Source of the DNA: Sedimentibacter hydroxybenzoicus DSM 7310
GTDB taxonomy: Bacteria; Bacillota; Clostridia; Tissierellales; Sedimentibacteraceae
Assembly: GCF_013403245.1 (NCBI RefSeq)
Contig: NZ_JACBNQ010000032.1
Span: forward strand, 1-33,454
Reading direction: 5' to 3'
DNA: 33,454 nucleotides
In this document: positions 4,208-25,354 of the stretch, one piece after another
How the letters are laid out: every line of letters begins with the position of its first letter
How positions within the stretch are numbered: the stretch's first letter is position 1
Position numbers and translations under genes: made by a program
The notes under the pieces: generated by a model
Told to the model about the DNA's origin: nothing
What the model saw: the letters and a program-made list of their open reading frames with translations, nothing else
The model's database searches: none

Positions 4208-5491
4208 TTATGGTGTAAGCTCACCTATCTTGGTCACTGCAACATAAATATTTGAAATGCTGTACCATGTGGCAAAGTCAACTATGCCTGTAACAGGAAG
4301 CTGAAATATTTCCTGAAACCTTTTAACTGCATCTTCTGTTGTCTCTTTGAAAATACCATCTACCCTTATTTTAGGTATTGCAGGGTAATTATCTGAAATC
4401 CTGTTGAGCTGTTCCTGAATAGTTCTGACAGCTCCGCCGGCAGAGCCTGACAGCAGGTTTACGCCGGGGAAAGACTGCGGAATTCCCTCAACTATTTGTG
4501 CTTGTGCAAGATAAACCTCGCTTCCGTAATAATACCGCAAAATATCAATAGGGGAATAACCCTGCTCTCCCATGTTTTTTGAGCCCCACTGATTCAACCA
4601 ATCAGGGCAGCTTACTCTTTGCCCGTCGCAGTATTGTGCAAGCAAGGGCTGTCTTATGTTGGGTTTTGTTATATAAGTTGTAAAAATTTCATCCACAACA
4701 TATGCTATCTCTTCAAAAATAGTACGGCCGTATGAAAAGGCTTGATCATAAGCTGTTGAATTAGTAATTGTAAAATCAAAGCCCTTGTTTCTGTACCATT
4801 CGGTATAAACACGATTGAGGGTGAATGACAGAATGGCTAAAACATTCGCCTGGATGGTATTACTTGACCAAGTGCAATAAATTTCACTGCTTGCGACATT
4901 TTTTATGTAGTCTTTGAAAGGAACATAATAATTCGTAGCAGAAAAGTTTGAAGGAACTCCATCATGCACAATGATGGTTTCGGGAATGACCGGTTCAGAC
5001 AAAACAACAAAACCTGATGATGGTGGAAGCTCTTTTATCGCACTTTCGGGAATCTTGGGCGGAAAATTTCCCCAAAGCACAGGATATGGAACAAAAAGAG
5101 TGCGTGATGTTTCATAGGAGTATTTCCGCTGTCTTAAATTAATGTTTTGGATAGCTGTTGTTTCTGGAAATACTTGCACTCCTTCTACAATAATGATATC
5201 AAGATCCTCGCGTGTTGCAATAATATCATATGTACTGAAAGGTTGGGGAAATCCCGGAGCTAAGGAGTATTCCAACGGCGGTGTTGGCAAGCTTATTTCC
5301 TGTGTCCGTCCGGAAGAGTTGGTGCTTATTTGTGCAATTAAGTACGAATTTAATCTTGACATAACGAGCACATTCACATCGGAAAGCGGTATCCCTAAGT
5401 TTGCATCGAAGCATTGGACCTGCAAACGCCCCCTGTCAATCATCTCATTCATTCTTATTTTTCTTGTATCGGGTTTGTTGTATGGTGTCAT
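4208..5491 (-). CDS. sleC: SleC-like spore cortex-lytic enzyme (germination)
   Basis: This 427-residue protein matches the SleC architecture. An N-terminal pro-region with a beta-sandwich look spans about residues 20-120. A SpoIID-related catalytic domain spans about 205-330 (FTLNRVYTEWYRNKGF, ITNSTAYDQAFSYGRTIFE, YCDGQRVSCPDWLNQWGS). A C-terminal peptidoglycan-binding domain spans about 350-415 (VRTIQEQLNRI, VDGIFKETTEDAVKRFQ). In Clostridium, SleC is stored in spores as a zymogen and degrades cortex peptidoglycan once a Csp protease removes its pro-region. The ATG at 5491 follows AAGGAGC. It lies 15 bases after the Csp-like pseudoprotease gene, giving the csp-csp-sleC order known from C. 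perfringens. No typical signal peptide is visible. Confidence 0.9.
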   Translation of the reverse strand: MTPYNKPDTRKIRMNEMIDRGRLQVQCFDANLGIPLSDVNVLVMSRLNSYLIAQISTNSSGRTQEISLPTPPLEYSLAPGFPQPFSTYDIIATREDLDIIIVEGVQVFPETTAIQNINLRQRKYSYETSRTLFVPYPVLWGNFPPKIPESAIKELPPSSGFVVLSEPVIPETIIVHDGVPSNFSATNYYVPFKDYIKNVASSEIYCTWSSNTIQANVLAILSFTLNRVYTEWYRNKGFDFTITNSTAYDQAFSYGRTIFEEIAYVVDEIFTTYITKPNIRQPLLAQYCDGQRVSCPDWLNQWGSKNMGEQGYSPIDILRYYYGSEVYLAQAQIVEGIPQSFPGVNLLSGSAGGAVRTIQEQLNRISDNYPAIPKIRVDGIFKETTEDAVKRFQEIFQLPVTGIVDFATWYSISNIYVAVTKIGELTP

Positions 5492-5506: not shown

Positions 5507-7204
5507 TTACTTCAATTTGTTAAACGATTCAAATAAATCAAGCTTGCCATATCCCCATTGAACATTAGGGTATTCGCGACTGCCGGATCGGCTGCATCCT
5601 CTGATTAACAGGGAGAGAACACGATTACAGCTCATATCCGGCTCATGATTCATTACAATGCCCCACTGCAGCATGATGGCGGCGGCTCCCGTTGTGATGG
5701 CAGCAGCAACTCCCGTTCCTGATGATGTACCGGGTCCCTTGGGATATATTCCTCCTATATTTACACCGGGAGCAACAAAGTCCGGCGACATTCTTGGGAG
5801 TCTGGTCGGACCCCATGAAGAAGCAATAAAAAGACTGTCATCCCTATTGTTATAAGCTCCGCATGTAATAGTTCCTATTGAGGTAGCAGGATTGACAATG
5901 GTATAGTTTGGTTTAGGCTCAATAAATTCTACATATGGGCTGACCATACCTGTTATTGGCAGCCATGCATGATATTCTCCGCTGACGACAATATCACCTT
6001 GCAGTATAATCTCCCATATTCCCGGTGTAGGATCTTCCACTTCTACAATAGCCAGACGACTTCTTAATTGGAAATATCCTATCCCCACCAAAGACTTTTC
6101 CAAAACCAGCGTTTTTCGAAATGCAATATTGCTTTCAAACGGAATCCGGTTAATTACCTGTCCCGTAGGTGATTTAACTGCTACAGATATCTTATCCCAC
6201 GCTTCATTCCAGATTTGAACAGAAAATCCCCTTACATTTTGACCCACGTTAATTCCAATGTTTTGAATCTGTCCTGCTTCGGTGAATACGCCGTCTGTAT
6301 GATGCTTGGCATTGCTTTCATTTCCGGCAGCTGTACAAATGGCAACACCTCTCCTGTTGCATACATAGGTCAAATACTCTTCCATCATACTAAAGCCGGC
6401 GTGTCCGCCGAAATTGGTTCCTAAAGCAATGCAGATGGCTACCGGGCGGTTGAATGTATCCGCCTGGTCCAATATATATTCAATGCCCATCATGATATTA
6501 TCGGAAGTAAATATAATGCTGTCATCCGGCAGCTCAGGAAATAGTCTGAAATAATAAGGGCTTGCGGGCTTCAATTTTACGGCGATGATTGAAGCGTCTG
6601 GGGCTGATCCTATATGACCGTTGTTTTCCCGCCCGCCTGCCACCGATGCTATAAAGGTGCCGTGTCCGATAGTATCCTGCTGAGGAACAATCTCCAAGGG
6701 AGATTCCGATTGCAGTGCTGCGTTAATTTCCTTCTGAGTATACACAGCACCAAACTGCATATCCTCCGGGAAAGTTCCGTTTCCCGTCTGGTCCCAAATT
6801 GATAATATTTTGCTGCTCCCATCTTCATACCGAAAGGATGCGCTGGTATAGTCGATTCCCGTATCCACAAAACCTAAAATTACTCCCTGACCTCTTAAAT
6901 CGACACCCGGCATTTGCTGAAGTCGTGTGGTAATGGGCTCCTCAAAGGTTTCACTATCTAAAAGTGTGTAGTCTATAGGGTGATTATTAATAAAGGTTTC
7001 TCCCAACTCACGTAATATAGGATGTAATTTATCTTCGGAGACATAAGCAATCACATATCCACCTGATAGGACAGTCCCAATGCGAATGTATGGATTTTCT
7101 TCGGCAAACTGCCTGAACCTATCGCTGTCTTGAACTTGAAAGCTTGCTGTGGTCGGCAAGCTGATAAACTCCGCCAACGTCATATCCTTTGGTAATATAT
7201 CCAA
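5507..7204 (-). CDS. Csp-type subtilase, predicted pseudoprotease (Ser to Gly), CspC-like
   Basis: This 565-residue S8-family protein is homologous to its neighbour along the whole length and carries the Csp-type inserted jellyroll-like region. The catalytic Asp (D114 in GFVDTGIDY), His (H181 in IGHGTF) and oxyanion Asn (N295 in AAGNES) are present. The nucleophile position is Gly498 in SSGTGVAAAITTG, codon GGA at 5711-5713; the neighbour has GTSIAAPFVTG there. Loss of the serine parallels C. difficile CspC, a pseudoprotease involved in germinant signalling, although CspC also lost its His. The start is TTG at 7204, with GGAGG inside the upstream gene and one base between the two ORFs, so translation is probably coupled. 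No proteolysis is expected, and a scaffold or signal role is inferred. Confidence 0.88.
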   Translation of the reverse strand: MDILPKDMTLAEFISLPTTASFQVQDSDRFRQFAEENPYIRIGTVLSGGYVIAYVSEDKLHPILRELGETFINNHPIDYTLLDSETFEEPITTRLQQMPGVDLRGQGVILGFVDTGIDYTSASFRYEDGSSKILSIWDQTGNGTFPEDMQFGAVYTQKEINAALQSESPLEIVPQQDTIGHGTFIASVAGGRENNGHIGSAPDASIIAVKLKPASPYYFRLFPELPDDSIIFTSDNIMMGIEYILDQADTFNRPVAICIALGTNFGGHAGFSMMEEYLTYVCNRRGVAICTAAGNESNAKHHTDGVFTEAGQIQNIGINVGQNVRGFSVQIWNEAWDKISVAVKSPTGQVINRIPFESNIAFRKTLVLEKSLVGIGYFQLRSRLAIVEVEDPTPGIWEIILQGDIVVSGEYHAWLPITGMVSPYVEFIEPKPNYTIVNPATSIGTITCGAYNNRDDSLFIASSWGPTRLPRMSPDFVAPGVNIGGIYPKGPGTSSGTGVAAAITTGAAAIMLQWGIVMNHEPDMSCNRVLSLLIRGCSRSGSREYPNVQWGYGKLDLFESFNKLK

Positions 7205-7205: not shown

Positions 7206-8909
7206 TTAAATTCCTCCCTTGATATAGGATATAAGCATATCCATAGTGTTTTTCAAACAAAGCGTTCCGTATCCCCAATATTGGTTTGGGTAATTCATGC
7301 CATTTTGTCTGCGTGCTCCAAGTCTTAAAAATGCCTTTATACGCTCACCATATAAAAACGGGTCGTTGCCTTCCACAATGCCCCATTGCATCATTAGAGC
7401 AGCAGAACCCGTAACAAAAGGAGCAGCTATGCTGGTTCCTGTAAACAATCCATATCCTCCGTATTTATTAGATGACATAATGTCTACTCCTGGAGCGACC
7501 AAATCCGGCTTTACATAAATATTGCTTCGTGTATACCCCCTACCGGAAAAATCAGCAATACTGTTTAGGTGAGAATTATATGCTCCTACTGTGATTACAT
7601 AAAAGGCTGTCGACGGCAGTGTGAGAGTTGTATCAATATAGGGAATAAAAAATGCCGTATTAAGGGAAACCTCTTCTATTATGGGAAGCCATATATCGAA
7701 ACTTCCATCAATAATTTCATCGGCTTTGATCCTTAACTGCCACAGACCCTCAGGTAGCCTCCCCTCTGTAGCTTCAATCTGAATAAATATATTCTGATCT
7801 ACGTTGTAGTGTCTTGGCTGACCATAATTAATATATACAGCTACATTATTAAAATAGATTACTTTTTCATGGTCTGCATATGTGATTTGTCCCGTTGTGA
7901 CACCGCTTGGAAGAATAAGCTCAATGCTGAATACATCAATAAAGTTTTTCCACAAGGTCAAATAAAACGAAGCTAACCCTCCTGTGGTATAAAAATCAAT
8001 ATTTCTTGTTTCATTCGTTTCAAGTATGCCTCTGTAGTGATGTGCAGCGGCACCTTCATTTCCGGATGCAACAACAATGACATTCTTCCATCTTTGGGCA
8101 ATGTCGTTCATAAAACCTTCAAAGAGCGAGTTACCGTCATGTGAACCATCATTGGTACCATAGCTGATATTTACAGCAATGGGCATCTCAAGGAACTCTG
8201 CTTTATCAATTACATATTTCAGTGCTCTCATCAATTCTGTTGTTCTTGCAAAGGAGCTCTGACCACGCCTTCCAAGACGAACAACAATGAGAGAAGCTTC
8301 CGGAGCAGATCCCCGGTAAATTCTGTTTACACTTCCTCTTCCGTTACCCGCTGCGACACCTGCAACCGCAGTGCCATGTCCGATATAATCCATATCAGGT
8401 ATGATACTATAGGGATACGTACTTGACAAAGCTGTGTTGATTTCTGTCTCGTTATACTCCGCTCCTCCTTTGAAGCCTTGCGGCGGAATTCCTTGCCCTG
8501 CTTGATCCCATATATATTTAATACGCGTGTGACCGTTATCGTTTCTAAAATCAGGATGGGTATAATCAATCCCTGAATCAATGATTCCAATCAGCGTTCC
8601 TTTTCCGGACAGTCCAAATGATGTTTGACTTTGTACCGGAGCAATACATGCTGCATCAAGAGCATCCCGCAAAACAAACTGCAAACGCTTAGGCAGCTCA
8701 ATATGTTCAATTTCGGTCTGTGCGGACAGCCATGAAATTAGTGGCTGTTTTAAGGTGATGATGGCATATTGTTCGCTTAGTATCTCTACTTCAACATCAG
8801 AGATGCTTTCAAATTTTAAAATATCGCCGTGATATTTTACGATAACTTCCCAGGTATTATCTTCTATATTATACCCGGTCTCAAGTTCACTGTTTTTAAA
8901 ATCAATCAA
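7206..8909 (-). CDS. Csp-type germination serine protease, catalytically intact
   Basis: This 567-residue S8 subtilase is of the clostridial Csp type. A pro-domain of about 95 residues precedes the catalytic domain. The triad is complete: D111 (IIDSGIDYTHPDF), H178 (DYIGHGTAVAG) and S493 (TGTSIAAPFVTG), with the oxyanion Asn in VASGNEG. A large insertion between the Asn and Ser blocks corresponds to the jellyroll domain of Csp proteins. The expected role is activation of pro-SleC in the germinating spore. The start is TTG at 8909 with AGGAGG seven bases upstream; no ATG competes. It is second in the operon, 42 bases after a small spore-type gene. Which of CspA or CspB it matches best needs an alignment. 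Confidence 0.92.
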   Translation of the reverse strand: MIDFKNSELETGYNIEDNTWEVIVKYHGDILKFESISDVEVEILSEQYAIITLKQPLISWLSAQTEIEHIELPKRLQFVLRDALDAACIAPVQSQTSFGLSGKGTLIGIIDSGIDYTHPDFRNDNGHTRIKYIWDQAGQGIPPQGFKGGAEYNETEINTALSSTYPYSIIPDMDYIGHGTAVAGVAAGNGRGSVNRIYRGSAPEASLIVVRLGRRGQSSFARTTELMRALKYVIDKAEFLEMPIAVNISYGTNDGSHDGNSLFEGFMNDIAQRWKNVIVVASGNEGAAAHHYRGILETNETRNIDFYTTGGLASFYLTLWKNFIDVFSIELILPSGVTTGQITYADHEKVIYFNNVAVYINYGQPRHYNVDQNIFIQIEATEGRLPEGLWQLRIKADEIIDGSFDIWLPIIEEVSLNTAFFIPYIDTTLTLPSTAFYVITVGAYNSHLNSIADFSGRGYTRSNIYVKPDLVAPGVDIMSSNKYGGYGLFTGTSIAAPFVTGSAALMMQWGIVEGNDPFLYGERIKAFLRLGARRQNGMNYPNQYWGYGTLCLKNTMDMLISYIKGGI

Positions 8910-8951: not shown

Positions 8952-9236
8952 TTAAAAAAAGGCATATATCATTTCTCTTTTCACGTAACTGCCAACCCAT
9001 TTTTCGCCGTCCCAAAAATACCCCTGCACATATATATATGTAAATGCAATAGGGAAGAACCAAAACTCCCGGTAATTATTCAGCCACAGATAAAATACCA
9101 TATTGGTGTTTCTTTCGTGAAATAAATTACAGTCAATTGCATAGGACAGATGTGGGGTCATAGCAGGGGGAAAAGCCGGCGGAAGATTATGCCTTAAAAA
9201 AGCGTGTAAATCAGATTGATAAATATATCGTTGCAT
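8952..9236 (-). CDS. Small aromatic-rich protein at the head of the germination operon
   Basis: This 94-residue protein is unusually rich in Tyr, Phe and Trp, particularly in the second half (VFYLWLNNYREFWFFP, GYFWDGEKWVG). The C-terminal pattern resembles small proteins of clostridial spore-formers sometimes misnamed transporters, with an FWFYP motif followed by a GxxWxxxxWV motif. I rest that on recall, not a search. The ATG at 9236 has GGAG seven bases upstream; the in-frame ATG at 9251 overlaps that site. It is codirectional with the csp-csp-sleC genes and 42 bases upstream of the first, so a spore or germination role is suggested by context only. Confidence 0.75.
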   Translation of the reverse strand: MQRYIYQSDLHAFLRHNLPPAFPPAMTPHLSYAIDCNLFHERNTNMVFYLWLNNYREFWFFPIAFTYIYVQGYFWDGEKWVGSYVKREMIYAFF

Positions 9237-9285
9237 ACATACACTCCTCATATAATCAATAACCTCTTCAAAGATAAATATATGC

Positions 9286-11959: not shown

Positions 11960-14581
11960 TTAATTTTTAACAGCCGCCTGAGCTGCTGCTAATCTTGCTA
12001 CCGGTACTCTGAACGGTGAGCAGGATACGTAGTCAAGTCCTGTTTTGTGGAAGAATTCTATGGAAGCAGGGTCCCCGCCGTGCTCTCCGCAAACTCCCAG
12101 GTGGAGATGATCTTTTGCACCTCTTCCGAGCTTAACGGCTGTTTCAACTAATTTACCTACACCAACTTGGTCTATCGTCTGGAACGGATCCTGTTCAAGT
12201 ATGCCTGCATCCTTGTAATCCTCCAGGAATTTACCTGCATCATCTCTTGAATAACCGAATGTCATTTGTGTTAAGTCATTGGTACCGAATGAGAAGAAAT
12301 CCGCATATTCTGCAACCTCGTCAGCCGTAACGCATGCTCTCGGTATTTCTATCATTGTTCCCACAAGGTATTGAAGGTCGGAGCCAAATTCCTTTTTGGT
12401 TTCTTCCGCAACTTCGATTATTAATTTTCTCAATATGCTTAATTCTTCTTTTTTACCAACGAGAGGAACCATTATTTCAGGTATTATATTTATATTTTCC
12501 TCTCTTGAAACCTCTATTGCTGCTTCAATTATTGCCTTTGTCTGCATTCTTGCTATTTCAGGATATGATATTGCAAGACGGCAACCCCTGTGTCCAAGCA
12601 TCGGGTTAAATTCCTGCAAGCCGTTAATTGTATCCTTAAGCTTAGTAACTGATACGTTCATATCCTTAGCAAGATCGATTATATCCTCTTCATCATGAGG
12701 TATGAATTCATGCAGAGGTGGATCTAACAATCTTATTGTAACGGGACGAATTCCCATCACCTTGAAAATTCCCTTGAAGTCATTTTTCTGCATAGGCAGT
12801 ATTTCCGCCAATGCTTTTTCTCTTTGTTCAACTGAATCGGCAATTATCATTTTACGTACTGAGAATATACGGCTTTCTTCAAAGAACATATGCTCAGTCC
12901 TGCATAAGCCTATACCTTCAGCACCGAATTTCACGGCAACTTCGGAATCCTTAGGAGTATCTGCATTTGTCCTGATGCCAAGCACTCTGAATTCATCTGC
13001 CCATTCCATTAGTTTACTGAAGTTTCCTGATATATTTGCTTCAACTGTTTTTATTTTTCCTTTATATACGCTTCCTGTGCTTCCGTCAAGTGAAATATAG
13101 TCGCCTTCCGTATATGTTTCACCTTTTACGGTCATTATTTTACTTGATTCATTAACATTGATTGACTCACATCCTGCTACACAGCATTTACCCATTCCTC
13201 TTGCCACAACGGCAGCATGTGATGTCATACCTCCTCTTGAAGTAAGAATACCCTTGGCTTTATTCATTCCTTCGATATCTTCAGGGGAGGTTTCCTTTCT
13301 AACCAAAATTGTATCTTCGCCTCTTTGAACTGCAGCAACAGCTTCATCTGCAGTAAAATAAATTTTTCCTGTAGCAGCTCCCGGTGATGCAGGAAGCCCT
13401 TTTGCTATAGGTACTGATTTTTCAAGATCTGCCTGGTCAAATTTAGGATGCAGCAATTGATCTAATGATTTTGGGTCAACTCTCATAACGGCTTCTTTCT
13501 TAGTAATAAGACCTTCGTCAACCATTTCTACGGCAGCTCTTAATGCTGCATCTGCAGTTCTTTTGCCGTTACGGGTTTGCAGGAAGTATAATTTCCCTTC
13601 CTCTATTGTAAATTCTATATCCTGCATATCTTTATAGTGCTGCTCAAGAGTATGGGCAGCCTCTATAAATTGATTATATATTTCAGGCATAACTTCATTT
13701 AATTTGTCTATTGGCAACGGTGTTCTTATACCTGCAACAACGTCCTCGCCCTGAGCATTAATCAGGAATTCGCCGAATACATTCTTCTCTCCTGTAGAAG
13801 GATTTCTTGTAAATGCAACACCTGTACCTGAAGTATCTCCCATGTTGCCGAAAACCATTGATTGTACGTTTACTGCTGTTCCTAAATTGTGGGGTATATC
13901 ATATAGATTTCTGTATGTAATTGCTCGTTGGTTATTCCATGATCTAAATACTGCTTCAACTGCCATTAACAGCTGGTTTTCAGGTTCCTGAGGGAATTCT
14001 GTCTTTGTTTCTTCCTTATATATTGTTTTAAATTCATCAACCAGGCTTATTAAGTCTTCTGCAGTAAGCTCTGTATCGAAATTATATCCCTTTTCTTCTT
14101 TTGCAGTTTCAAGAGCATTATCAAATTTTACTTTAGGTATTTCTAAAACTACATCACCAAACATTTGGATGAATCTTCTATAACTGTCGTATGCAAATCT
14201 TTTATTTCCGGTTTTATTTGCCATTCCTTCAACTGTTTTATCGTTCAGTCCAAGATTTAATATTGTATCCATCATACCGGGCATTGAAAATGCAGCTCCG
14301 GAACGAACTGATACTAATAAAGGATTATCTATATCACCAAACTTTTTGCCTGTTTGTTCTTCAAGAATTGATAGGTTTGCTTCAATTTGATTAATTATTT
14401 CATCCGTTAATTTTTTTCCCTGCTCATAAAATTCGGTACACGCTTCGGTTGTAACTGTTAATCCGGGAGGTACAGGAAGACCAATATTAGTCATTTCACA
14501 AAGGTTAGCACCTTTTCCACCCAACAGATATTTTTGAGAAGCATTACCTTCTTTAAACAAATAAACCCACTTTTTGCTCAT
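11960..14581 (-). CDS. ppdK: Pyruvate, phosphate dikinase
   Basis: This 873-residue enzyme has the usual PPDK length. It interconverts pyruvate, ATP and phosphate with phosphoenolpyruvate, AMP and pyrophosphate, and in anaerobes often runs in glycolysis. Three regions are seen: an N-terminal ATP-grasp domain, the swivelling phosphohistidine domain with GGMTSHAAVVARG (His at residue 455), and the C-terminal TIM barrel with GVCGEHGGDP (Cys at residue 831). Both positions coincide with the Clostridium symbiosum enzyme numbering. The ATG at 14581 was chosen because GGAGG ends six bases upstream; the ATG at 14587 directly abuts that site. It is divergent from dxs and monocistronic, with a hairpin after it. 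Confidence 0.98.
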   Translation of the reverse strand: MSKKWVYLFKEGNASQKYLLGGKGANLCEMTNIGLPVPPGLTVTTEACTEFYEQGKKLTDEIINQIEANLSILEEQTGKKFGDIDNPLLVSVRSGAAFSMPGMMDTILNLGLNDKTVEGMANKTGNKRFAYDSYRRFIQMFGDVVLEIPKVKFDNALETAKEEKGYNFDTELTAEDLISLVDEFKTIYKEETKTEFPQEPENQLLMAVEAVFRSWNNQRAITYRNLYDIPHNLGTAVNVQSMVFGNMGDTSGTGVAFTRNPSTGEKNVFGEFLINAQGEDVVAGIRTPLPIDKLNEVMPEIYNQFIEAAHTLEQHYKDMQDIEFTIEEGKLYFLQTRNGKRTADAALRAAVEMVDEGLITKKEAVMRVDPKSLDQLLHPKFDQADLEKSVPIAKGLPASPGAATGKIYFTADEAVAAVQRGEDTILVRKETSPEDIEGMNKAKGILTSRGGMTSHAAVVARGMGKCCVAGCESINVNESSKIMTVKGETYTEGDYISLDGSTGSVYKGKIKTVEANISGNFSKLMEWADEFRVLGIRTNADTPKDSEVAVKFGAEGIGLCRTEHMFFEESRIFSVRKMIIADSVEQREKALAEILPMQKNDFKGIFKVMGIRPVTIRLLDPPLHEFIPHDEEDIIDLAKDMNVSVTKLKDTINGLQEFNPMLGHRGCRLAISYPEIARMQTKAIIEAAIEVSREENINIIPEIMVPLVGKKEELSILRKLIIEVAEETKKEFGSDLQYLVGTMIEIPRACVTADEVAEYADFFSFGTNDLTQMTFGYSRDDAGKFLEDYKDAGILEQDPFQTIDQVGVGKLVETAVKLGRGAKDHLHLGVCGEHGGDPASIEFFHKTGLDYVSCSPFRVPVARLAAAQAAVKN

Positions 14582-14791
14582 AATCATCCTCCAAATATTT
14601 TATTTCACTTATTATGTTGTTTTAAGTTTACCCTATTATTAATTATTTAAAACAACAAGGGGTGACAACTTATTCATTTTTATTGTGTTACACTATTTGA
14701 TATAAATATACTAAATATGATACAATATTAAATCGAAAATGTACAGTATATTTTTAAGAAGAGTCATAAAAATTAATATGAATAATTCGTT

Positions 14792-14820
14792 TTGACATAT
14801 TTATGTAAGCAATATATAAT
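14792..14820 (+). promoter_or_regulatory. Consensus sigma-A promoter of dxs
   Basis: TTGACA (14792-14797) and TATAAT (14815-14820) are spaced by 17 bases, a full match to the sigma-A consensus. Transcription should start near 14827, about 44 bases before the dxs ATG. I found no convincing promoter for the divergent ppdK within 14588-14790. Confidence 0.8.
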
Positions 14821-14870
14821 TATGAGTGCGTATGCTATTAAATAAAACAATTTAATATTGAGAGGAAATA

Positions 14871-16733
14871 ATGAAATTATTGGATAGTATTAATTTTCCC
14901 GAGGATTTAAGGAAATTAAACAATGAAGAATTAAATATATTAAACAACGAATTAAGACAATACATAATAGAATCTGTTTCAAAGACAGGAGGACATTTAG
15001 CTTCTAATTTAGGAGTGGTGGAACTGACAGTTGCTCTGCATTATTCATTTAATACACCTATTGATAAAATAATATGGGACGTAGGTCATCAGTCCTATAT
15101 TCATAAAATAATTACGGGAAGAAAAGAAAAAATGTCTACATTGAGGCAATATAACGGTTTGAGCGGTTTTCCCAAACGCAGTGAAAGCTGTTATGATGTC
15201 TTTGACACAGGGCACAGCAGTACTTCTATTTCTGCTGCAATGGGAATTGCAAGAGCACGGGATTTGAAAAAAGAAAAATATGAGGTTGTTGCCGTAATAG
15301 GTGACGGTGCTCTTACGGGCGGCATGGCATTTGAGGCACTGAATGATTTAGGCAGAAGCAATACCAAACTTATAATCGTACTTAATGACAATGAAATGTC
15401 CATATCTCCAAACGTTGGAGGTATGTCACACTATCTCAGCGTTATAAGAACCAGCTCAAGATATTTATCAACTAAAAAGGATATTGAAAAGCTTTTAAAT
15501 GATATGCCTGTAGTGGGAAAAACAATTAAATCCTTTTTAAAAAGAACTAAGGATGGAATCAAAAAAATGTTTATTCCGGGAATGCTGTTCGAAGAATTAG
15601 GTCTTACTTATATGGGACCGATTGACGGGCATAATACCGAGGAACTGTTAGAATCCTTTAAAGCGGCAAAAAACATAGACGGACCCCTTATAATGCATGT
15701 AATAACCAAAAAGGGCAAGGGATACAAATATGCCGAAACAAGACCTGATGAATATCACGGAGTATCTCCTTTTAATGTGGTGACGGGAGAGGGCTTGAAA
15801 AAATCGGAAGTTCCTACGTACTCGAAAGTGTTTGGCAGAAAGTTATGTGAAATAGCTGGAGAAAATAAAAATGTGGTGGCTATAACAGCAGCAATGACAG
15901 ATGGTACAGGGTTAAAGGAATTTTCAAAAATATATCCGGACAGAATCTTTGACGCAGGTATTGCAGAACAGCATGCTGTTACCATGGCTGCCGGACTTGC
16001 CGTAAATGGAATGGTTCCCGTGGTAGCGGTTTATTCATCTTTTTTGCAGAGGGCGTATGATCAGGTAATACATGATGTGGCACTCCAGAATCTTCATGTT
16101 GTTTTTGCTGTTGACAGGGCAGGACTTGTGGGGGACGACGGAGAAACTCACCATGGTGTTTTTGATGAGGGATTTTTAAGTCAGATACCAAACATGACCA
16201 TAATGGCTCCTGCTGATTATACTGAATTTGAAAATATGCTTACGTATGCAATAAATGAATATGATGGTCCTGTCGCAGTAAGATATCCGAGAGGCAATTC
16301 ATCATCAATCATCAACAACAGCAATTCACCGGTTGAAAAAGGCAAGGGTGCAATCGTTAAAGAAGGCAGTGAGATAACAATTGTCTGTTCAGGTAAAATG
16401 GTAGAAACGGCGATTAAGGTAAGCGAAATATTAGAAAAACAAAATATTGATGCAGAAGTAATTAATCTTCGGTTCATTAAACCATTGGACGAAAACTTAC
16501 TTAATACGTCAGTCAGCAAAACTAAGAAGGCTGTTATTATAGAGGAGAGCTCTTTATATGGTGTTGCTTCCTTAATAAAGACAATTATTCCTGATGATGT
16601 AGATGTTTTATTAAAAACACTTCCTGATGAATTTATCAAGCATGGAAGCGTAGAAGAACTGCTTAAGGCCAATGGACTAGATGAGAAAAGCATAGCAGAA
16701 GATATTATAAACAATAAATGGAGGATGCAATGA
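14871..16733 (+). CDS. dxs: 1-deoxy-D-xylulose-5-phosphate synthase
   Basis: This 620-residue thiamine-diphosphate enzyme is complete. It condenses pyruvate and glyceraldehyde 3-phosphate in the first step of the MEP isoprenoid pathway. Visible motifs are the N-terminal HLASNLGVVELTVALH, the ThDP-binding GDGALTGGMAFEALN through NDNEMSIS, and the transketolase-type pyrimidine domain (DAGIAEQHAVTMAAG, DRAGLVGDDGETHHG). The ATG at 14871 follows GAGAGGAAATA. A consensus promoter precedes it. Its stop codon overlaps the next gene's start as ATGA, so the two are cotranscribed and translationally coupled. The usual partners (ispA, xseB, tlyA) are not next to it in this window. Confidence 0.97.
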   Translation: MKLLDSINFPEDLRKLNNEELNILNNELRQYIIESVSKTGGHLASNLGVVELTVALHYSFNTPIDKIIWDVGHQSYIHKIITGRKEKMSTLRQYNGLSGFPKRSESCYDVFDTGHSSTSISAAMGIARARDLKKEKYEVVAVIGDGALTGGMAFEALNDLGRSNTKLIIVLNDNEMSISPNVGGMSHYLSVIRTSSRYLSTKKDIEKLLNDMPVVGKTIKSFLKRTKDGIKKMFIPGMLFEELGLTYMGPIDGHNTEELLESFKAAKNIDGPLIMHVITKKGKGYKYAETRPDEYHGVSPFNVVTGEGLKKSEVPTYSKVFGRKLCEIAGENKNVVAITAAMTDGTGLKEFSKIYPDRIFDAGIAEQHAVTMAAGLAVNGMVPVVAVYSSFLQRAYDQVIHDVALQNLHVVFAVDRAGLVGDDGETHHGVFDEGFLSQIPNMTIMAPADYTEFENMLTYAINEYDGPVAVRYPRGNSSSIINNSNSPVEKGKGAIVKEGSEITIVCSGKMVETAIKVSEILEKQNIDAEVINLRFIKPLDENLLNTSVSKTKKAVIIEESSLYGVASLIKTIIPDDVDVLLKTLPDEFIKHGSVEELLKANGLDEKSIAEDIINNKWRMQ

Positions 16734-17452
16734 AGCCTGTAATTGGAGTAACAACAGATAGTGAATACAGTAATGGGTATTATTATCAACGGTTAAACGA
16801 ATGGAATTTAAGGGCGATTTCTGACAACGGGGGAATTTCTTTTATGTTCCAGATCACAAACGACGATGAAATTATCGAAAAGTATCTGGAAATGGTTGAC
16901 GGAATTTATTTTACCGGAGGCAATGATATTAATCCTCAGTACTATGGCGAAGATCCGATCAAGGGTCTCGGAACTTTGGATTGTGCCAGAGATGAGTTCG
17001 AAATAAAGCTCTATCGCAAGGCTGCCGAAAAGGACATACCTATATTAGGAGTATGCAAAGGCTCACAGATTATGAATGTGGCAGCCGGAGGGAAGCTGTA
17101 CCAGGATGTAAACACACAGGTTAACGATGTGAACAAACACAACTACAGTTCGTTCGGAGCTTATGAATATCATAATGCGGATATCTGTACTGATTCCAAG
17201 CTGCATGAAATACTTAAGGTGAAAGAGCTTAAGGTTAATTCATATCATCACCAAAGTGTAAAAGAGGTTGCCAAAGGATACAAGATTGTTGCTTCTGCAA
17301 GGGATGGAATTGTGGAAGCTATTGAATCGGAAGAATTGACATTTGCGGTAGGCATTCAGTGGCACCCAGAGGTTATGTACTGTAAGTATCCTATACATGC
17401 CGACATTTTCAAAGCTTTTTTAAGACAATGCGAAATTTATCATAATAAATAG
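16730..17452 (+). CDS. Class-I glutamine-amidotransferase-like hydrolase (peptidase C26)
   Basis: This 240-residue protein belongs to the gamma-glutamyl-gamma-aminobutyrate hydrolase (PuuD-like) group. The catalytic Cys is C109 in LGVCKGSQ, and the His and Glu are H212 and E214 in GIQWHPE. The early YFTGGNDINPQYYGE segment is characteristic. It should hydrolyse a gamma-glutamyl amide in the cytoplasm; the substrate is unknown. The ATG at 16730 has GGAGG five bases upstream, both inside the end of dxs, with a 4-base ATGA overlap. Nothing known links this family to isoprenoid synthesis, so the pairing is simply operonic as far as I can tell. Confidence 0.92.
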   Translation: MKPVIGVTTDSEYSNGYYYQRLNEWNLRAISDNGGISFMFQITNDDEIIEKYLEMVDGIYFTGGNDINPQYYGEDPIKGLGTLDCARDEFEIKLYRKAAEKDIPILGVCKGSQIMNVAAGGKLYQDVNTQVNDVNKHNYSSFGAYEYHNADICTDSKLHEILKVKELKVNSYHHQSVKEVAKGYKIVASARDGIVEAIESEELTFAVGIQWHPEVMYCKYPIHADIFKAFLRQCEIYHNK

Positions 17453-17544
17453 TGATTTAACATACCCCTGAATAATCAAAAAAATATTATTTACTATTGA
17501 AATTAAGCACGTTATACATTAATATTAATATAACTAAATTAAAG

Positions 17545-17569
17545 TCCCCGCTTCCATAGGCGGCGGGGA
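17545..17569 (+). terminator. GC-rich hairpin after the dxs operon
   Basis: TCCCCGC (17545-17551) pairs with GCGGGGA (17563-17569). The tail TTATTTC is only partly T-rich. It lies about 90 bases after the hydrolase stop and is likely the operon terminator. The remainder of 17453-17655 shows no gene. Confidence 0.55.
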
Positions 17570-17655
17570 TTATTTCACTATAGCATAAGCGCTTGTCTGG
17601 CAATTGAACATAAATTATTCAGAATGTCAAAAGAAAAATATAAAGGGGTTTGCAT

Positions 17656-18735
17656 ATGAATAAAATTGAAATTGTAATAGGTGATAAAAAATATAATGTA
17701 AGAACAGATGAAAGTCCGGAGTATGTTAAGAACATAGAAAATATTATAAACGAGCAAATCAATATAATTACTAATTCAAATAAAAGATTTAACGAGATAG
17801 ATAAATTAATTTTGTCTTCTTTCGTAATTGTTGATAAATATATTAAGCTGAATGATGAAATTAACGAATATAAAAAAGAAATATGTGAAGAAATACAGAG
17901 TTTAAAACAGGAAAAAGAAACAGCAATAAAAGAAAAAGAAGAAACGTTGGAGAAATCTTCAGAAGCAATTTTAGAAAAGGAAAGATACAGAGAAAAGCTT
18001 TTAGCAAGAGATAATGACAGAGAATATTTAAACAGTCAAATTTCTAAGCTGCAGGATAAAATAAATGAGCAGGAGCAGCAATTATTAAAAAGTGAAATGC
18101 TCATTAATGAATTAAAAAATAAAAATGAAGAATTAGAGGAATCTATAGAAGAACTTAGAATGGAGCGAGAGAATTTCACAAAAGAGCTAAGCTTCATGAA
18201 TAATACGAAGAGCAGCTTGAACGGAAGAATTTCCAAGCTTCAATTAAAGCTTAACGAAAAGGAACAATCGATTCTTCAACTCGAAAAAACCATCAGGGAG
18301 TTAAAAAGTACCGGTGATGAGAAAACTCAAAAAATTTATAATGTTAATGATGAAAATCAAAAATTAAATTTAATAATAGAATCAAAGCAAAGTGATATTG
18401 AATCACTCAGCAATAAAATAAGTGCATTACAAAATAAGATATATGAAAAAGATGGAATAATTAACAGCAAGGATAAATCTATAGCTGAATATAAGTACAG
18501 TAACGATGAATTAAAGAAAAAATATGATATAATTAACGATGAGAGAGAAAAATACTTAGAAGAGCTGTTAATGCTTAACAATGACAAAGAAAATTTGATG
18601 AATTCTATTAATGAGCTTCAGGAGAAACTGAACAGAAAAGAAGCGGAAAATTTTCAAAATCAGTTGGAAATAACAAAGCTTAAAAAAGATAATATGGAAT
18701 TACTGGATTTACTCGATAGAGAAACCTCTGTTTAA
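17656..18735 (+). CDS. ZapA-domain protein with a long repeat-built coiled coil
   Basis: The first 75 or so of 359 residues match ZapA (NKIEIVIGDKKYNVRTDESP, then a helix containing KRFNEIDKLILSSFVIVDKY). ZapA normally has about 100 residues and bundles FtsZ filaments at the division site. Here the family's helix continues into about 280 residues of highly charged coiled coil. Residues 93-344 consist of four units of exactly 63 residues (nine heptads each), with matching Leu at 125, 188, 251 and 314. The ATG at 17656 follows AAAGGGG. The neighbouring U32 and mutS2 genes are common companions of zapA in Clostridia, and a terminator separates it from the U32 gene. The role is presumably division-related; the coil may act as a spacer. 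Confidence 0.82.
   Translation: MNKIEIVIGDKKYNVRTDESPEYVKNIENIINEQINIITNSNKRFNEIDKLILSSFVIVDKYIKLNDEINEYKKEICEEIQSLKQEKETAIKEKEETLEKSSEAILEKERYREKLLARDNDREYLNSQISKLQDKINEQEQQLLKSEMLINELKNKNEELEESIEELRMERENFTKELSFMNNTKSSLNGRISKLQLKLNEKEQSILQLEKTIRELKSTGDEKTQKIYNVNDENQKLNLIIESKQSDIESLSNKISALQNKIYEKDGIINSKDKSIAEYKYSNDELKKKYDIINDEREKYLEELLMLNNDKENLMNSINELQEKLNRKEAENFQNQLEITKLKKDNMELLDLLDRETSV
17932..18687 (+). repeat. Four diverged 189-bp tandem repeats inside the zapA-like gene
   Basis: Four blocks of 63 codons begin at residues 93, 156, 219 and 282. Corresponding segments are ISKLQDKINEQE (129 on), ISKLQLKLNEKE (192 on), ISALQNKIYEKD (255 on) and INELQEKLNRKE (318 on). A second matching segment upstream of each is ERYREKLLARDNDREYL in unit 1 and EKYLEELLMLNNDKENL in unit 4. 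Nucleotide similarity is lower than the protein pattern, so the duplications are old. Confidence 0.75.
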
Positions 18736-18780
18736 ACTTTTTTAACGGACTTTCATATTTGTGATTTTGCATCAATCTAC

Positions 18781-18803
18781 GGAACGCTTATGCGTTCCTT
18801 TTT
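18781..18803 (+). terminator. Terminator after the zapA-like gene, just before the U32 start
   Basis: GGAACGC (18781-18787) pairs with GCGTTCC (18792-18798) around a TTAT loop and is followed by five T residues. The U32 start codon is only 17 bases further on. The ATG at 18790 falls inside this hairpin, which argues against that longer start. Confidence 0.75.
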
Positions 18804-18819
18804 AAAAACAGGAGAAAAA

Positions 18820-20997
18820 ATGATAAGAAAAACAGAGCTATTAGCTCCTGCGGGAAGTATTGAATCCTTTTATGCTGCAGTAAACAGCGGTGCGGATTCA
18901 GTCTACCTGGGAGGAAAATTATTTAACGCAAGACATAATTCACAGAATTTCGATGATGAACAAATGAAGCGTGTTATTAAATATGCACACAATAAAAATG
19001 TAAAGGTGTATGTTACTTTAAACATAATATTAAAGGATACAGAAATCTTTGATGCATTAAAGTATGCCGCATTTTTGTATGAAAATGATGTGGATGCGGT
19101 AATTGTCCAGGATTTGGGTCTTTTATATCTGTTAAAGAAGCATATACCGCAGTTGCCTGTCAACATAAGCACTCAGGGAGCCGTTTATGATGAATACGGA
19201 GTGAAATTCTTTGAACAATACAATGTACAAAAGGTTATTCTGGCAAGAGAAATGTCACTGGCTCAATTGAGAGAAACCGTTAAAAATACTGATACAGATC
19301 TTGAGACCTTTATACACGGTGCTCTTTGCACGTGCTATTCAGGTCAATGCTACATGTCAAGCTTTTTAGGAGGCAGAAGTGGAAACAGAGGCAAATGCGC
19401 ACAGCCGTGCCGTTTGAATTACAGCTTTTATGATAAGGAAAAGGGTGAATTATCAGAGGAATTTAATGAGATGCCCGTTCTTAGCTTAAAGGATTTTATG
19501 GCAGGAGAAACGGTACATGAATTAATCGACGCAGGTATTACCACATTTAAAATTGAAGGACGCATGAAGGGACCTTTGTATACTTCAGAGGTGGTTAGAT
19601 ATTATAGGCAGATAATTGATGATTATTATAAGGGGACACAGACAGATACGAGTACCCTTAGAGAAAGAGCAGTGTCAACCTTTAGCAGAGGATATACAAA
19701 CTCATACCTTAAACCGGACAAGGATGATGAAATGTTTGCAAAGCTTAGCTCAGGTGTTAAGGGTGAAAATATTGATGAAATAGAAGAAGAAAACAATGAT
19801 ATATCTCATGAATTTTCAGAGTATAAGAGAAATTCATTAAATTTTAAAATAAAATTAAAAATTGGTGAAAAAGCTGAGTTGTTTGCTTCAGACGGTGAGA
19901 ATGAGGTGCTGATTAAAAGCGAAGAACCCTGTGAAAGCAGCTTAAGAAATGCCGTAACAGAGGATATTGTCAAGGAACAGTTAGGGAAGCTCGGCAATAC
20001 AATCTATGAATTACAAGATTTAACGATAGAAAAGCAGGACAATGTTTTTATCAGAAAAAGCACACTGAATCAACTCAGGAGAGATGCTACAGAATTGCTT
20101 TATGAAAAAAAAGCCGTCGTTTACCACAGGGAACCGGTTTGCTTTACACGCAATGAAGTGTTCAGCTTCAATAAAACAGACGAAATTAACAAACCCAGAA
20201 TAAGTGTTAAAATAAACAGTGATGATGATTTTAAACTGATAGACAATCATAAGGTTGACAGAATTTATGTACCTTATAAATTGAATTTGGATTTAGTCAG
20301 AAAAATCAGTGTTAAGGAAAAATATTTGTTTATCCCTAATATAGTTTCCGTGACACAATACAATGAGTTTAAAAACAACTTGAAATTATACGAAGAAATA
20401 TTTGATGGGGTTTGTGTAAATAATGTAGGAAGCTTCTTCTTTTTTAAACAAAACAGCAGCTTAAAAATTCATTGCGGTTCATTTTTTAACATAATAAATT
20501 CATTCTCTACAGAGCTATTAAAGGAAAATGGAGCGGTGAGCGTGACTTTTTCGACGGAATCAAATATAAGAGATATGGAAAGTATAAATAAAAATGCTTC
20601 TGTAAAGACAGAAGTCAAATCCCATGAATATTTGCAGCTTATGGTTATGAAAAATTGTCCCATGTCTTTAATTAAAAAATGTAAAAATCTGCAGGATTGC
20701 AGCACTTGTGAGCATAGAAACAAATATGCCTTAAAGGACAGAAAGGGTGTTTATTTCAATATAGAACGGGATAACAGACTGACACATATATACAACAGTG
20801 TACCGCTGTCTCTTTTGGGTAAGACGGAGGATTTTGTAAGTCAGCATATTGATTATTTCATGGTTGATACAAAGTGGCTTGATGATGCAGAGGATATAAT
20901 TGATGCATTGTATTGTGAAATAAACGGTGTCAGAGTTCCGAATGTTTTAAAGGAAAATAACTATACCAGAGGTCATTATCTGAAGAACATACTTTAA
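18820..20997 (+). CDS. U32-family protein with DUF3656-type C-terminus
   Basis: This 725-residue protein opens with ELLAPAGSIESFYAAVNSGADSVYLGG, quoted in part, the hallmark of the U32 family. The Cys cluster is in CTCYSGQCYMSS through GNRGKCAQPCR (four or more cysteines), followed by SLKDF and FKIEGRMKGP. The family, once called collagenase-like peptidases, includes enzymes that hydroxylate tRNA or 23S rRNA bases (TrhP and RlhA), and long DUF3656 members resemble RlhA. A second cluster near the C-terminus (CPMSLIKKCKNLQDCSTCEH) may bind a metal or Fe-S centre. The ATG at 18820 follows AGGAG. It sits between the zapA-like gene and mutS2. RNA hydroxylation is the best guess; proteolysis is unproven. 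Confidence 0.9.
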   Translation: MIRKTELLAPAGSIESFYAAVNSGADSVYLGGKLFNARHNSQNFDDEQMKRVIKYAHNKNVKVYVTLNIILKDTEIFDALKYAAFLYENDVDAVIVQDLGLLYLLKKHIPQLPVNISTQGAVYDEYGVKFFEQYNVQKVILAREMSLAQLRETVKNTDTDLETFIHGALCTCYSGQCYMSSFLGGRSGNRGKCAQPCRLNYSFYDKEKGELSEEFNEMPVLSLKDFMAGETVHELIDAGITTFKIEGRMKGPLYTSEVVRYYRQIIDDYYKGTQTDTSTLRERAVSTFSRGYTNSYLKPDKDDEMFAKLSSGVKGENIDEIEEENNDISHEFSEYKRNSLNFKIKLKIGEKAELFASDGENEVLIKSEEPCESSLRNAVTEDIVKEQLGKLGNTIYELQDLTIEKQDNVFIRKSTLNQLRRDATELLYEKKAVVYHREPVCFTRNEVFSFNKTDEINKPRISVKINSDDDFKLIDNHKVDRIYVPYKLNLDLVRKISVKEKYLFIPNIVSVTQYNEFKNNLKLYEEIFDGVCVNNVGSFFFFKQNSSLKIHCGSFFNIINSFSTELLKENGAVSVTFSTESNIRDMESINKNASVKTEVKSHEYLQLMVMKNCPMSLIKKCKNLQDCSTCEHRNKYALKDRKGVYFNIERDNRLTHIYNSVPLSLLGKTEDFVSQHIDYFMVDTKWLDDAEDIIDALYCEINGVRVPNVLKENNYTRGHYLKNIL

Positions 20998-21040
20998 CAA
21001 TCGGAGAACGATAATAATGAATAATGATATCGTTCGCTAT

Positions 21041-21112
21041 CGTCATTCCGAGTGTTAGCGAGGAATCTCAGGTTTTTAATTATGAGATCCTTTGCTTATG
21101 CTCAGGATGACG
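21041..21112. repeat. 72-bp imperfect palindrome, REP/MITE-like
   Basis: CGTCATTCCGAG (21041-21052) is complementary, with wobbles, to CTCAGGATGACG (21101-21112). Inside, GGAATCTCA (21062-21070) pairs with TGAGATCC (21083-21090). I recognise this CGTCATTC...GAATGACG-type string as a dispersed non-coding repeat in many bacterial genomes (recall, not a search). It lies between the U32 gene and mutS2. Another hairpin precedes it (21006-21013 with 21028-21035). It creates a false N-terminal extension of the mutS2 frame. Confidence 0.7.
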
Positions 21113-21153
21113 AATACATGGATATTCTGAGTGTAAATGAAAAAGAGGTAATT

Positions 21154-23532
21154 ATGAAAAACAAATCAAAATCGGTTTTAGAGTTTGATAAAATTATAGA
21201 GATTCTTGCATCCTTTGCGGAAACCTCCTTGGGTAAGGAGGAGGTCAGAAAGCTTGATACATCATCAGATCTGGAGGGTGTTAAATTCAAGCAGAAGCAA
21301 ACAGCAGAAGGTGTTTCTATAATTATAGAAAAGGGTGCCCCACCGTTAGGCGGCTTCACTCAGGTAAAGGAGTACGTAAAAAGAGGCTCTGTGGGAGGTA
21401 TCATATCTCTCAGAGGTCTGTTAAACTGCGCCGATTCCTTAAGAGCTGCAAGGCTGGTGAAAAACTATGTCCTTCTTAATAACAAAGAAGAGGGAAGCTA
21501 TGAAATACTGGAAGATTTGTGTAATGGAATTTATACAAATAAGGATATAGAAGAAAGAATATATAACATTATTATAAATGAAGAGGAAATTGCAGATGAT
21601 GCAAGTCCGGAATTAAAGCGTATAAGAAAAGAAATACAGATAAAACAAAATTCAATCAAAAATAAAATCAACCAGATTGTCGGCTCTTCCACAATCCAGA
21701 AGTATCTTCAGGAAAATATTGTTACCATGAGAAATGACAGATACGTTATTCCTGTGCGCAAAGAATATAGAAGCATGGTTAAGGGAATTATACACGACCA
21801 GTCATCCACAGGCTCCACGCTGTTTATAGAGCCAATCGCAATTGTAGAAATGACCAATGAGATATCTGATCTGAAAATGGCAGAAAAAAAAGAAGTGGAA
21901 AGAATCCTTTTGGAATTAAGTGCAATGATCGGTGAAGTTGCAGATGATATGCTGACTAATCAGGATATACTTAAGGAGCTTGATTTTGTATTTGCAAAAG
22001 GAAAATTTGCCATCAGCATAAATGCTGTTGAACCCAAGCTGAATGAGAGAGGATATATACGCATAAAAAAAGGAAGACATCCTTTAATAGACAAAAATGT
22101 TGTTGTACCCATAGATGCGTGGCTCGGTGATGAATTTACCACACTGATTATAACAGGTCCAAATACAGGCGGAAAGACTGTTTCCTTAAAAACACTTGGA
22201 TTGTTTTCTCTCATGGGTATGGCAGGACTTCATCTGCCGGCCGAATACGGAACGGAAATATCAGTTTTCAGTGCCGTATACGCTGATATAGGAGATGAAC
22301 AGAGTATTGAACAAAGCTTAAGTACATTTTCATCACACATGACTAACATTGTGAAAATAATGAAGGAAGTCGATGAAAAATCCTTTGTATTGTTTGACGA
22401 ATTAGGAGCAGGAACAGACCCTACAGAAGGAGCGGCTCTTGCTATTGCCATACTTGACACCTTGCATGAACGAAAAATTGTAACGGCGGCAACGACACAT
22501 TACAGTGAGCTGAAGCTGTACGCATTGACGACAGATGATGTAATCAACGGAAGCGTTGAATTTAACGTTGAAACATTGAGTCCAACCTACAAGCTTTCAA
22601 TAGGTGTTCCCGGGAAATCCAATGCGTTCGAAATTTCCAGGAAGTTAGGATTAAATCAGGATATTATAGATAAAGCAAAAAGAACTATTGAAACTGACAA
22701 GGTAGAATTTGAGGATGCACTGAAGCAGATAGAAGAAAACCGCATATATATTGAAGCAAAGAAAACGGAAATTGACAGATTAAACGAGGAAAGCCAGAAA
22801 AAACACTCAAGCTTTCTTGCAAAGGAAAGAAAAGCTCTTGAAAAAAGCGAGAAAATGATTAACGAAGCAAACTATGAGGCAAGAAAAATAGTGGAAAGTG
22901 CTAAGAAGGAAACTGCGGAAATCATTAAGGAACTGAGAAAGCTGAGCCTGGATATGGATAAAGACAAAGTCCGAAGAGTTAATGAGCTGAGACAAAGCCT
23001 TACTGAAAAAACAAAGGAAGTTGAGGAAAATCAATATAGTGACCAAATCTTTGAGGATGATAATTATGACGATGAAACTCCTTTGTCAAACGGTGATGCA
23101 GTATTGGTAAGGAGTTTAAACCAAAAAGGTCATATTATATCCGAGTTTGACAATTCTCAAAATGTTATGGTTCAAATCGGTTTAATCAAGACGAAGGTTA
23201 AAAAATCTGATTTAGTAAAAATAAAATCAGAGGATGAGAAAAAACAAAAAACAAATACCTCACGAATGGTAAAATTAAAAACATCCTCCATCAATCCGAC
23301 CATCGATTTAAGAGGATTGAATTTAGATGAAGCTTTGCTAGAGCTCGACAAATACCTGGATGATGCATTCATGTCCAATTTAAATGAGGTTCAGGTTATT
23401 CACGGCAAGGGAACAGGTGTTTTAAGAGAGGGTGTTACCCAATTCTTAAAAAAACACAAGCATGTTAAAGAATCAAGATTAGGATCCTTCAACGAAGGTG
23501 GCGACGGAGTGACGGTGGTAACATTTAAGTAA
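21154..23532 (+). CDS. mutS2: MutS2 (RqcU) ATPase/endonuclease
   Basis: This 792-residue protein has the family's usual length. It contains a MutS-type core with Walker A (ITGPNTGGKTVSLKT) and Walker B (LFDELGAGTDPTEGAAL), a long coiled-coil stretch, a KOW-like segment, and a C-terminal Smr domain (IDLRGLNLDEAL, VIHGKGTGVLR). In Firmicutes MutS2 suppresses recombination and, as RqcU, splits collided ribosomes; it does not take part in mismatch repair. The ATG at 21154 follows AGAGG; 34 further in-frame codons upstream are translated repeat DNA (21041-21112) and are unlikely to be real. A strong bidirectional terminator follows. Confidence 0.96.
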   Translation: MKNKSKSVLEFDKIIEILASFAETSLGKEEVRKLDTSSDLEGVKFKQKQTAEGVSIIIEKGAPPLGGFTQVKEYVKRGSVGGIISLRGLLNCADSLRAARLVKNYVLLNNKEEGSYEILEDLCNGIYTNKDIEERIYNIIINEEEIADDASPELKRIRKEIQIKQNSIKNKINQIVGSSTIQKYLQENIVTMRNDRYVIPVRKEYRSMVKGIIHDQSSTGSTLFIEPIAIVEMTNEISDLKMAEKKEVERILLELSAMIGEVADDMLTNQDILKELDFVFAKGKFAISINAVEPKLNERGYIRIKKGRHPLIDKNVVVPIDAWLGDEFTTLIITGPNTGGKTVSLKTLGLFSLMGMAGLHLPAEYGTEISVFSAVYADIGDEQSIEQSLSTFSSHMTNIVKIMKEVDEKSFVLFDELGAGTDPTEGAALAIAILDTLHERKIVTAATTHYSELKLYALTTDDVINGSVEFNVETLSPTYKLSIGVPGKSNAFEISRKLGLNQDIIDKAKRTIETDKVEFEDALKQIEENRIYIEAKKTEIDRLNEESQKKHSSFLAKERKALEKSEKMINEANYEARKIVESAKKETAEIIKELRKLSLDMDKDKVRRVNELRQSLTEKTKEVEENQYSDQIFEDDNYDDETPLSNGDAVLVRSLNQKGHIISEFDNSQNVMVQIGLIKTKVKKSDLVKIKSEDEKKQKTNTSRMVKLKTSSINPTIDLRGLNLDEALLELDKYLDDAFMSNLNEVQVIHGKGTGVLREGVTQFLKKHKHVKESRLGSFNEGGDGVTVVTFK

Positions 23533-23542
23533 AATTAATGCA

Positions 23543-23574
23543 AAACAGGCGAAACTCTCGGGTTTCGCCTGTTT
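23543..23574. terminator. Bidirectional terminator between mutS2 and the ABC-F gene
   Basis: A perfect 13-bp stem pairs AAACAGGCGAAAC (23543-23555) with 23562-23574. Converging genes on both sides and short A/T runs support use in both directions. Confidence 0.85.
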
Positions 23575-23586
23575 AATATACAATAT

Positions 23587-25158: not shown

Positions 25159-25298
25159 AAAAAAGTCCCTCCTTAAATAAGAGAGAAAATTAGTTTCCAT
25201 AAACAGAGCAAAAATCCATAGATTCATGCATCGTTACTGTTCAATTATATAAAATATAAAAAGGTTGGAATATAATTCACTCTCAATAGTAAAATAAC

Positions 25299-25323: not shown

Positions 25324-25354
25324 ATTAACATTCATTTACACATTTAAAAGTAAA

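Follow-up and report, generated by a model that had tools for sequence, protein, structure and literature searches.

The genome of Sedimentibacter hydroxybenzoicus DSM 7310 encodes two adjacent Csp-family subtilases, the second of which has Gly in place of the nucleophilic Ser. In C. difficile, CspC is a pseudoprotease of bile-acid germinant sensing, in which Thr and Gly replace the catalytic His and Ser. This raises the question of whether the second subtilase, which we call CspX, is a form of CspC or a Csp that lost its nucleophile separately, and what role it might play beside an intact protease. A first-pass annotation had read the locus as this organism's two-protein version of the system, with a half-degenerate pseudoprotease reflecting an independent or intermediate loss of activity. 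The window analyzed here is the entire contig of 33,454 bases, from a genome of 3.81 Mb in 71 contigs.

The cspB-cspX-sleC locus

The two subtilase genes have the coordinates and order that the first-pass annotation gave them, and a sleC-like gene comes directly after cspX. All are transcribed from the minus strand in the order orf99, cspB, cspX, sleC (Table 1). The spacing is 1 base between cspB and cspX and 15 bases between cspX and sleC, and Shine-Dalgarno-like strings can be read from the sequence ahead of each csp start (GGAGG) and ahead of sleC (AAGGAG). The locus is thus an operon-like array in which one Csp protease is intact and its partner lacks the nucleophile and retains the His, as previously described.

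Table 1. Features of the csp locus and its flank in the window
Feature	Position	Strand	Basis or remark
cspX, Csp-family subtilase, Gly replacing nucleophile Ser	5507..7204	-	565 aa, TTG start
cspB, intact Csp protease (D111, H178, N284, S493) with CspB prodomain	7206..8909	-	Pfam and triad alignment
sleC-like cortex lytic enzyme, PG_binding_1 domain	4208..5491	-	427 aa; Pfam and grouping with csp-linked SleC
orf99, small protein, 42 bases upstream of cspB	8952..9251	-	relatives upstream of other csp genes
Gly498 codon GGA, nucleophile position	5711..5713	-	47 Ser, 2 Gly, 1 Cys, 1 Ala in 51 rows (CspX included)
His181 codon, catalytic His kept	6662..6664	-	His in 51/51 rows
Asp114 codon, catalytic Asp kept	6863..6865	-	Asp in 51/51 rows
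Native chromosomal flank: PPDK, DXS, peptidase C26, ZapA, U32 peptidase, MutS2, ArgS, others	11960..30800		genus DNA matches

CspB has the features of its family: besides the triad, it matches the Pfam CspB prodomain (PF18425, 68.7 bits against a cut-off of 25) and Peptidase_S8 (PF00082), and its best PDB match by sequence is C. perfringens CspB (4i0w). The locus therefore resembles the C. perfringens SleC activation system, in that a CspB with triad and prodomain is followed by sleC. It differs in that the Csps of C. perfringens, like those of other Clostridiaceae and Lachnospiraceae, are all predicted to be active in the available part of PMC12880746, whereas CspX lacks the nucleophile.

The SleC encoded here clusters with SleC proteins that are csp-linked (41 rows, support 99) and stands apart from 17 SleC-like paralogues of the genus and family, which align over only ~260 residues. 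SleC-like matches occur in 25 of the 249 order genomes, all within the window's family, and the window genome itself has at least three further SleC-like proteins (7 of 26 candidates scored). The genus, otherwise Csp-less among the genomes sampled, carries several SleC-like proteins of ~470 aa, some in tandem (L215-L225).

In seven other loci, a relative of orf99 is encoded just upstream of a csp gene, and in an eighth, L100, the relative overlaps the beginning of a csp ORF. This family of 87-124 aa proteins, with invariant P, L, W, G and W, was found on 9 of 104 locus-strands with at least 350 nt upstream: the window, L096, L100, L101, L102, L104, L105, L116, and L139. The window member has no match in Pfam or NCBIfam, and other members gave four weak single-member Pfam matches (E 0.0019 to 0.17). 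The orf99 family is possibly a further germination component.

CspX has Gly at the nucleophile position of a conserved fold

Our alignments bear out the residue assignments of the first-pass annotation: Asp, His, and oxyanion Asn are kept in both proteins (D114, H181, and N295 in CspX), and the nucleophile is Ser in CspB and Gly498 in CspX. Across 51 aligned second Csps, the column before the nucleophile holds T in 47 rows and S in four (column 497), and column 495 holds S in 26, T in 21, N in two, and D in two. In an AlphaFold2 model of CspX, the long helix begins at residue 497. Judged by these flanking columns and the modeled helix start, the predicted nucleophile register at G498 is secure. 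We also looked for another Ser that could occupy the position. The candidate, S495, sits in the strand preceding the helix and is the usual Ser/Thr at -3, and it was rejected; alignment and model both leave Gly498 in place.

Two substitutions separate the GGA codon from TCA, AGT, and AGC, and three separate it from every other Ser codon, so a single miscalled base cannot account for Gly498. The rest of the protein is well conserved. We defined near-invariant columns as those in which at least 94% of the other rows share a residue, which gave 77 columns; CspX keeps 74 and deviates at three (M1, where the TTG start is read as Leu, G91, and S498), against a median of two deviations per row. Together, the codon distance and the three broken positions make sequencing error or decay unlikely. 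The end branch of CspX is not long either (0.46, tree median 0.5).

The AlphaFold2 model (mean pLDDT 89.7, pTM 0.91) has a beta-rich insert between the subtilase halves, as in the jelly-roll insert and prodomain fold of Csps. Foldseek ranks C. difficile CspC (6mw4) first (E 1.1e-54, TM-score 0.85 by query length); the first nine PDB matches are C. difficile CspC and CspA chains, followed by two of C. perfringens CspB. By sequence, CspX matches Peptidase_S8 and has no match to the Pfam CspB prodomain model (PF18425). CspX thus has the hallmark of a pseudoprotease, a catalytic residue gone (S498G) in an otherwise conserved fold, and from its sequence we infer that it is a non-catalytic Csp that has lost peptidase activity. 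The cspX gene of this species is known from one genome, and the loss of the nucleophile may be recent and neutral.

CspX falls outside the CspC clade

Our reference for CspC is genome G536, which is C. difficile or a very close relative; the CspC that it encodes matches 6mw4 over residues 1-557 (1155 bits). CspX and C. difficile CspC share the Csp fold, Gly at the nucleophile position, and a locus with catalytic CspB. They differ in that CspX keeps His181 where CspC has Thr and falls in a separate clade; in addition, there is no CspBA fusion in the window. C. difficile CspA (PDB 9pr9; CspC:CspA heterodimer, 9pr8) is likewise a nucleophile-less second Csp accompanying CspB. However, the CspA of G536 has Ala at the Ser position and Gln at the His position, is fused to CspB, and belongs to a different clade from CspX.

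In a 69-row tree, CspX falls in a five-row clade (SH-aLRT 99) whose other members have Ser (three) or Cys (one). A constraint that joins CspX to the three CspC rows is rejected, at a cost of 122 log units (p-AU 1.09e-9). Constraining it with three rows of genome G482, which also have Gly, costs 151 log units (p-AU 6.6e-52); this group was chosen after the tree was seen. These topology tests used quick trees, with SH-aLRT rather than bootstrap support. NCBIfam models likewise do not place CspX with the C. difficile proteins: it scores 254.6 bits against a cut-off of 675 for NF040808 (CspC_non_triad) and 271.7 against 1250 for the CspBA model. On this phylogeny, the predicted loss of the CspX nucleophile is independent of the loss in C. 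difficile CspC, and the Ser-to-Gly change common to both appears to have been reached separately. Of the two origins suggested by the first-pass annotation, the independent one is thus upheld, and the intermediate one conflicts with the placement of CspX in a different Csp clade.

The most similar relative that we found has 56% identity to CspX and keeps Ser. By identity or tree position, the nearest second Csps are those of L097 and L101 (both Anaerotignum sp. MB30-C6), L093, L098, and L103. In contrast to CspX, they have Ser (L097, L093, L098, and L103) or Cys (L101). Four of these five second Csps adjoin or are fused to a CspB; on the 4.8 kb contig of L093, no CspB unit was seen.

Nucleophile loss among second Csps

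A contig scan with two peptide patterns supplied 80 Csp loci, the top-ranked 80 of the 347 relatives present in 594 stretches. The scan is neutral with respect to the nucleophile, because one pattern covers the catalytic Asp and neither covers His or Ser. With loci from further genomes added, the set comprised 202 Csp units of at least 350 aa, or 198 after dropping four units of two duplicate loci. Three remaining pairs share at least 95% identity (95.5-96.6%), all of them full triads.

A FastTree tree of the 198 units, a sample that includes those best 80 of 347 relatives, has 54 units on the CspB side, every one with Ser, and 144 on the other side, 12 of which lack it. The bias of losses toward the non-CspB side reflects few events, about eight changes, with kinship uncorrected. 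All four residues are kept in 130 of the 144 non-CspB units of this sample, so non-catalytic function is not the rule among second Csps. The two-Csp layout itself is shared by many relatives, nearly always with both triads intact; the two-protein arrangement noted earlier is therefore real, but it is not peculiar to this organism.

The units without Ser take several forms. Gly occurs with His kept in five (CspX, three from G482, and one from L163) and with Thr at the His position in three (CspC of G536 and two of G604). Cys is found in L101 and Ala in L139, the CspA of G536 pairs Ala with Gln at the His position, and a second loss in L163 combines Ala at the nucleophile with Ser at His and Glu at Asn. 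The fewest state changes at the nucleophile number eight in the FastTree tree and eight in the 69-row IQ-TREE tree, which is enriched for rows without a full triad; in the latter, Gly versus all other letters takes at least four changes. Parsimony itself gives no direction, and we take Ser as ancestral because it dominates. In all, the trees imply about four separate changes to Gly in addition to the forms with Ala and Cys; each of these is in the partner, and 0 of 54 CspB units show one.

G482 (L063, L085; family code f45) has three diverged second Csps, two in tandem, all with Gly and His, which suggests that the Gly form can persist through duplication. These copies fall in an 18-row clade with several records titled or ranked as Lachnospiraceae (L149, L154, L169). 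Their nearest rows are L161 and L165, and NCBI ranks L165 as Clostridiaceae. In a Candidatus Epulonipiscium MAG (L163:7731-15693), four csp genes lie in a row, two without the nucleophile: one Gly form, one Ser/Glu/Ala form within a long ORF, and two intact CspB-like genes.

Several other loci depart from the usual pattern. Anaerotignum sp. MB30-C6 has two csp pairs (L097 and L101) on one complete chromosome (NZ_CP133078.1), with Ser in the second Csp of L097 and Cys in that of L101, where Cys could be a nucleophile or a loss. The second Csp at L124:7923-9620 has Ser in place of the catalytic Asp and keeps His and the nucleophile Ser. The CspA half of a CspBA fusion in G604 (L077:5171-8455) keeps His and Ser, unlike the CspA of G536. 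Finally, at L068:7312-12363, three Csp units are joined in one ORF of 1683 aa, next to which lie an ORF of two fused units and a one-unit ORF.

Distribution and probable lateral gain

At E<=1e-20, Csps were found in one of 27 genomes of the family, 25 of which belong to the genus, and in one of 249 order genomes, in both cases the window's own, and none was found in the 24 other genus genomes. The class-wide sample yielded Csps in 23 of 391 genomes, the window's included; at most three candidates were scored per genome, so per-genome match counts are lower bounds. Distant copies should not be missed, as the same search recovers the G536 Csps at E 1e-55 to 1e-66. G395, which has the nearest copy in the class-wide sample, is likewise the only member of its family with a Csp (1 of 38), and in the family of G307 both of two genomes have Csps. 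Given that Csps occur only in the window's genome among 249 of the order, the cspB-cspX-sleC cassette was probably gained laterally. Alternatively, csp genes may have been present ancestrally and lost many times.

The DNA to the right of the cassette is shared with the genus: bases 10900-30800 match DNA of all 25 genus genomes, counting the window's own, and the AraC gene at 11060-11833 lies beside PPDK in G012 at 89%. The gene at 9381-10358, nearer the cassette, has relatives at only 34-36% in two of the 24 other genus genomes. Across eight genus regions beyond PPDK, synteny revealed no clean empty site that would mark an insertion: seven contain PPDK only, one (a 3.9 kb contig) also has AraC, and the window's other left-hand genes occur in none.

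Composition was considered as evidence for transfer and dropped. The cassette has 41% GC, versus ~40% for native PPDK DNA, and its tetranucleotides fit the genome, with 23 of 57 equal-length genome segments farther from the centroid; for bases 1-6500, 55 of 57 are farther. Eight csp loci of other taxa lie at distances of 0.31-0.71, against a genome mean of 0.25, and the test is weak, as three genus-relative stretches gave 0.25, 0.26, and 0.45. Since composition does not set the cassette apart, any transfer would be old or from a similar donor.

A proposed role for CspX and its alternatives

A GerA receptor was found in 15 of the 17 genomes tested, including the window's (G000), and none was found in G536 and G604, which have C. 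difficile-type loci. The window genome therefore departs from C. difficile-type germination, which proceeds with no GerA-type receptor, and GerA is probably the organism's route into germination; the csp cassette would then be an additional arm or act downstream. We consider it reasonably probable that in this cassette, itself probably gained laterally, CspB is the sole cutter and the nucleophile-less CspX a structural or regulatory Csp subunit. On germination, CspB, the only Csp of the pair predicted to cut, would activate pro-SleC, and activated SleC would degrade the spore cortex. CspX would hold, restrain, or trigger CspB, in a role comparable to that of C. difficile CspA and CspC without being their orthologue, and GerA could feed into the cassette or act in parallel. 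Both the contact of CspX with CspB and the control of SleC are putative. The intact frames, the intact triad and prodomain of CspB, and the conservation of the rest of CspX are consistent with a partner role. According to the available part of PMC12880746, germinant signals in C. difficile are transduced by a CspC:CspA heterodimer, and CspB was not part of that complex; this speaks against a simple CspB:CspX pair.

Other readings of the locus place its history or its function elsewhere. One would make CspX a CspC orthologue from before the His-to-Thr change, that is, an evolutionary intermediate. Both proteins carry the Ser-to-Gly change within a GTGV motif, and CspC is the best fold match of CspX, yet the rejection of a joint clade, the CspC_non_triad score far below its cut-off, and the Ser and Cys of the surrounding relatives leave this reading with hardly any credibility. 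Also very unlikely is an assembly artefact, in which the csp segment of another organism was misjoined or mis-binned. The uniqueness of csp among the 249 order genomes, a contamination estimate of 3.19%, and the distant relatives of the gene at 9381-10358 would fit a foreign segment; against this, the contig carries ~19 kb native to the genus together with the cassette, AraC adjoins PPDK in G012, and the tetranucleotides of both the cassette and bases 1-6500 fit the genome, albeit by a weak test.

The remaining alternatives accept the cassette as part of the genome. It might be dispensable, given the organism's own GerA and at least three other SleC-like proteins, in which case it would have been gained but unneeded, and cspX would be drifting, with the nucleophile the first residue lost. 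The absence of Csps from the 24 other genus genomes also suits such recent decay, but the 565-codon frame is intact, few near-invariant positions have changed on an end branch that is not long, GGA requires at least two base changes from Ser, and the CspB and SleC partners are intact, and we regard decay as unlikely. CspX could instead be a decoy or inhibitor whose Gly site binds pro-SleC or the CspB prodomain and delays germination. Its retained Asp, His, and oxyanion Asn imply a mostly intact cleft that could bind without cutting; however, the two C. difficile pseudoproteases act as a CspC:CspA signalling node in the available part of PMC12880746, and we give the decoy reading a rather small chance. 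A structural or regulatory role for CspX beside CspB is the reading that we prefer.

Implications for Csp proteins

The available part of PMC6636752 limits Csp pseudoproteases to C. difficile and the Peptostreptococcaceae and describes the triads of Clostridiaceae and Lachnospiraceae Csps as intact, and that of PMC6199464 describes CspBA activity as variable inside the Peptostreptococcaceae. The losses outside the Peptostreptococcaceae found here run counter to this limit, as well as to the predictions available from PMC12880746. Our literature search found no report, by title, of Csp nucleophile losses outside the Peptostreptococcaceae, with incomplete coverage of key papers.

We suggest, tentatively, that Csp pseudoprotease subunits arise repeatedly, and that the csp-sleC module moves between distant Clostridia and gives spores with GerA a second, soluble input. 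The independent losses form a natural comparison set for asking which Csp features must stay once catalysis goes, and they bear on whether sensing and cutting generally split between partners. The Anaerotignum strain, whose two second Csps carry Ser and Cys, respectively, could make this question testable outside C. difficile.
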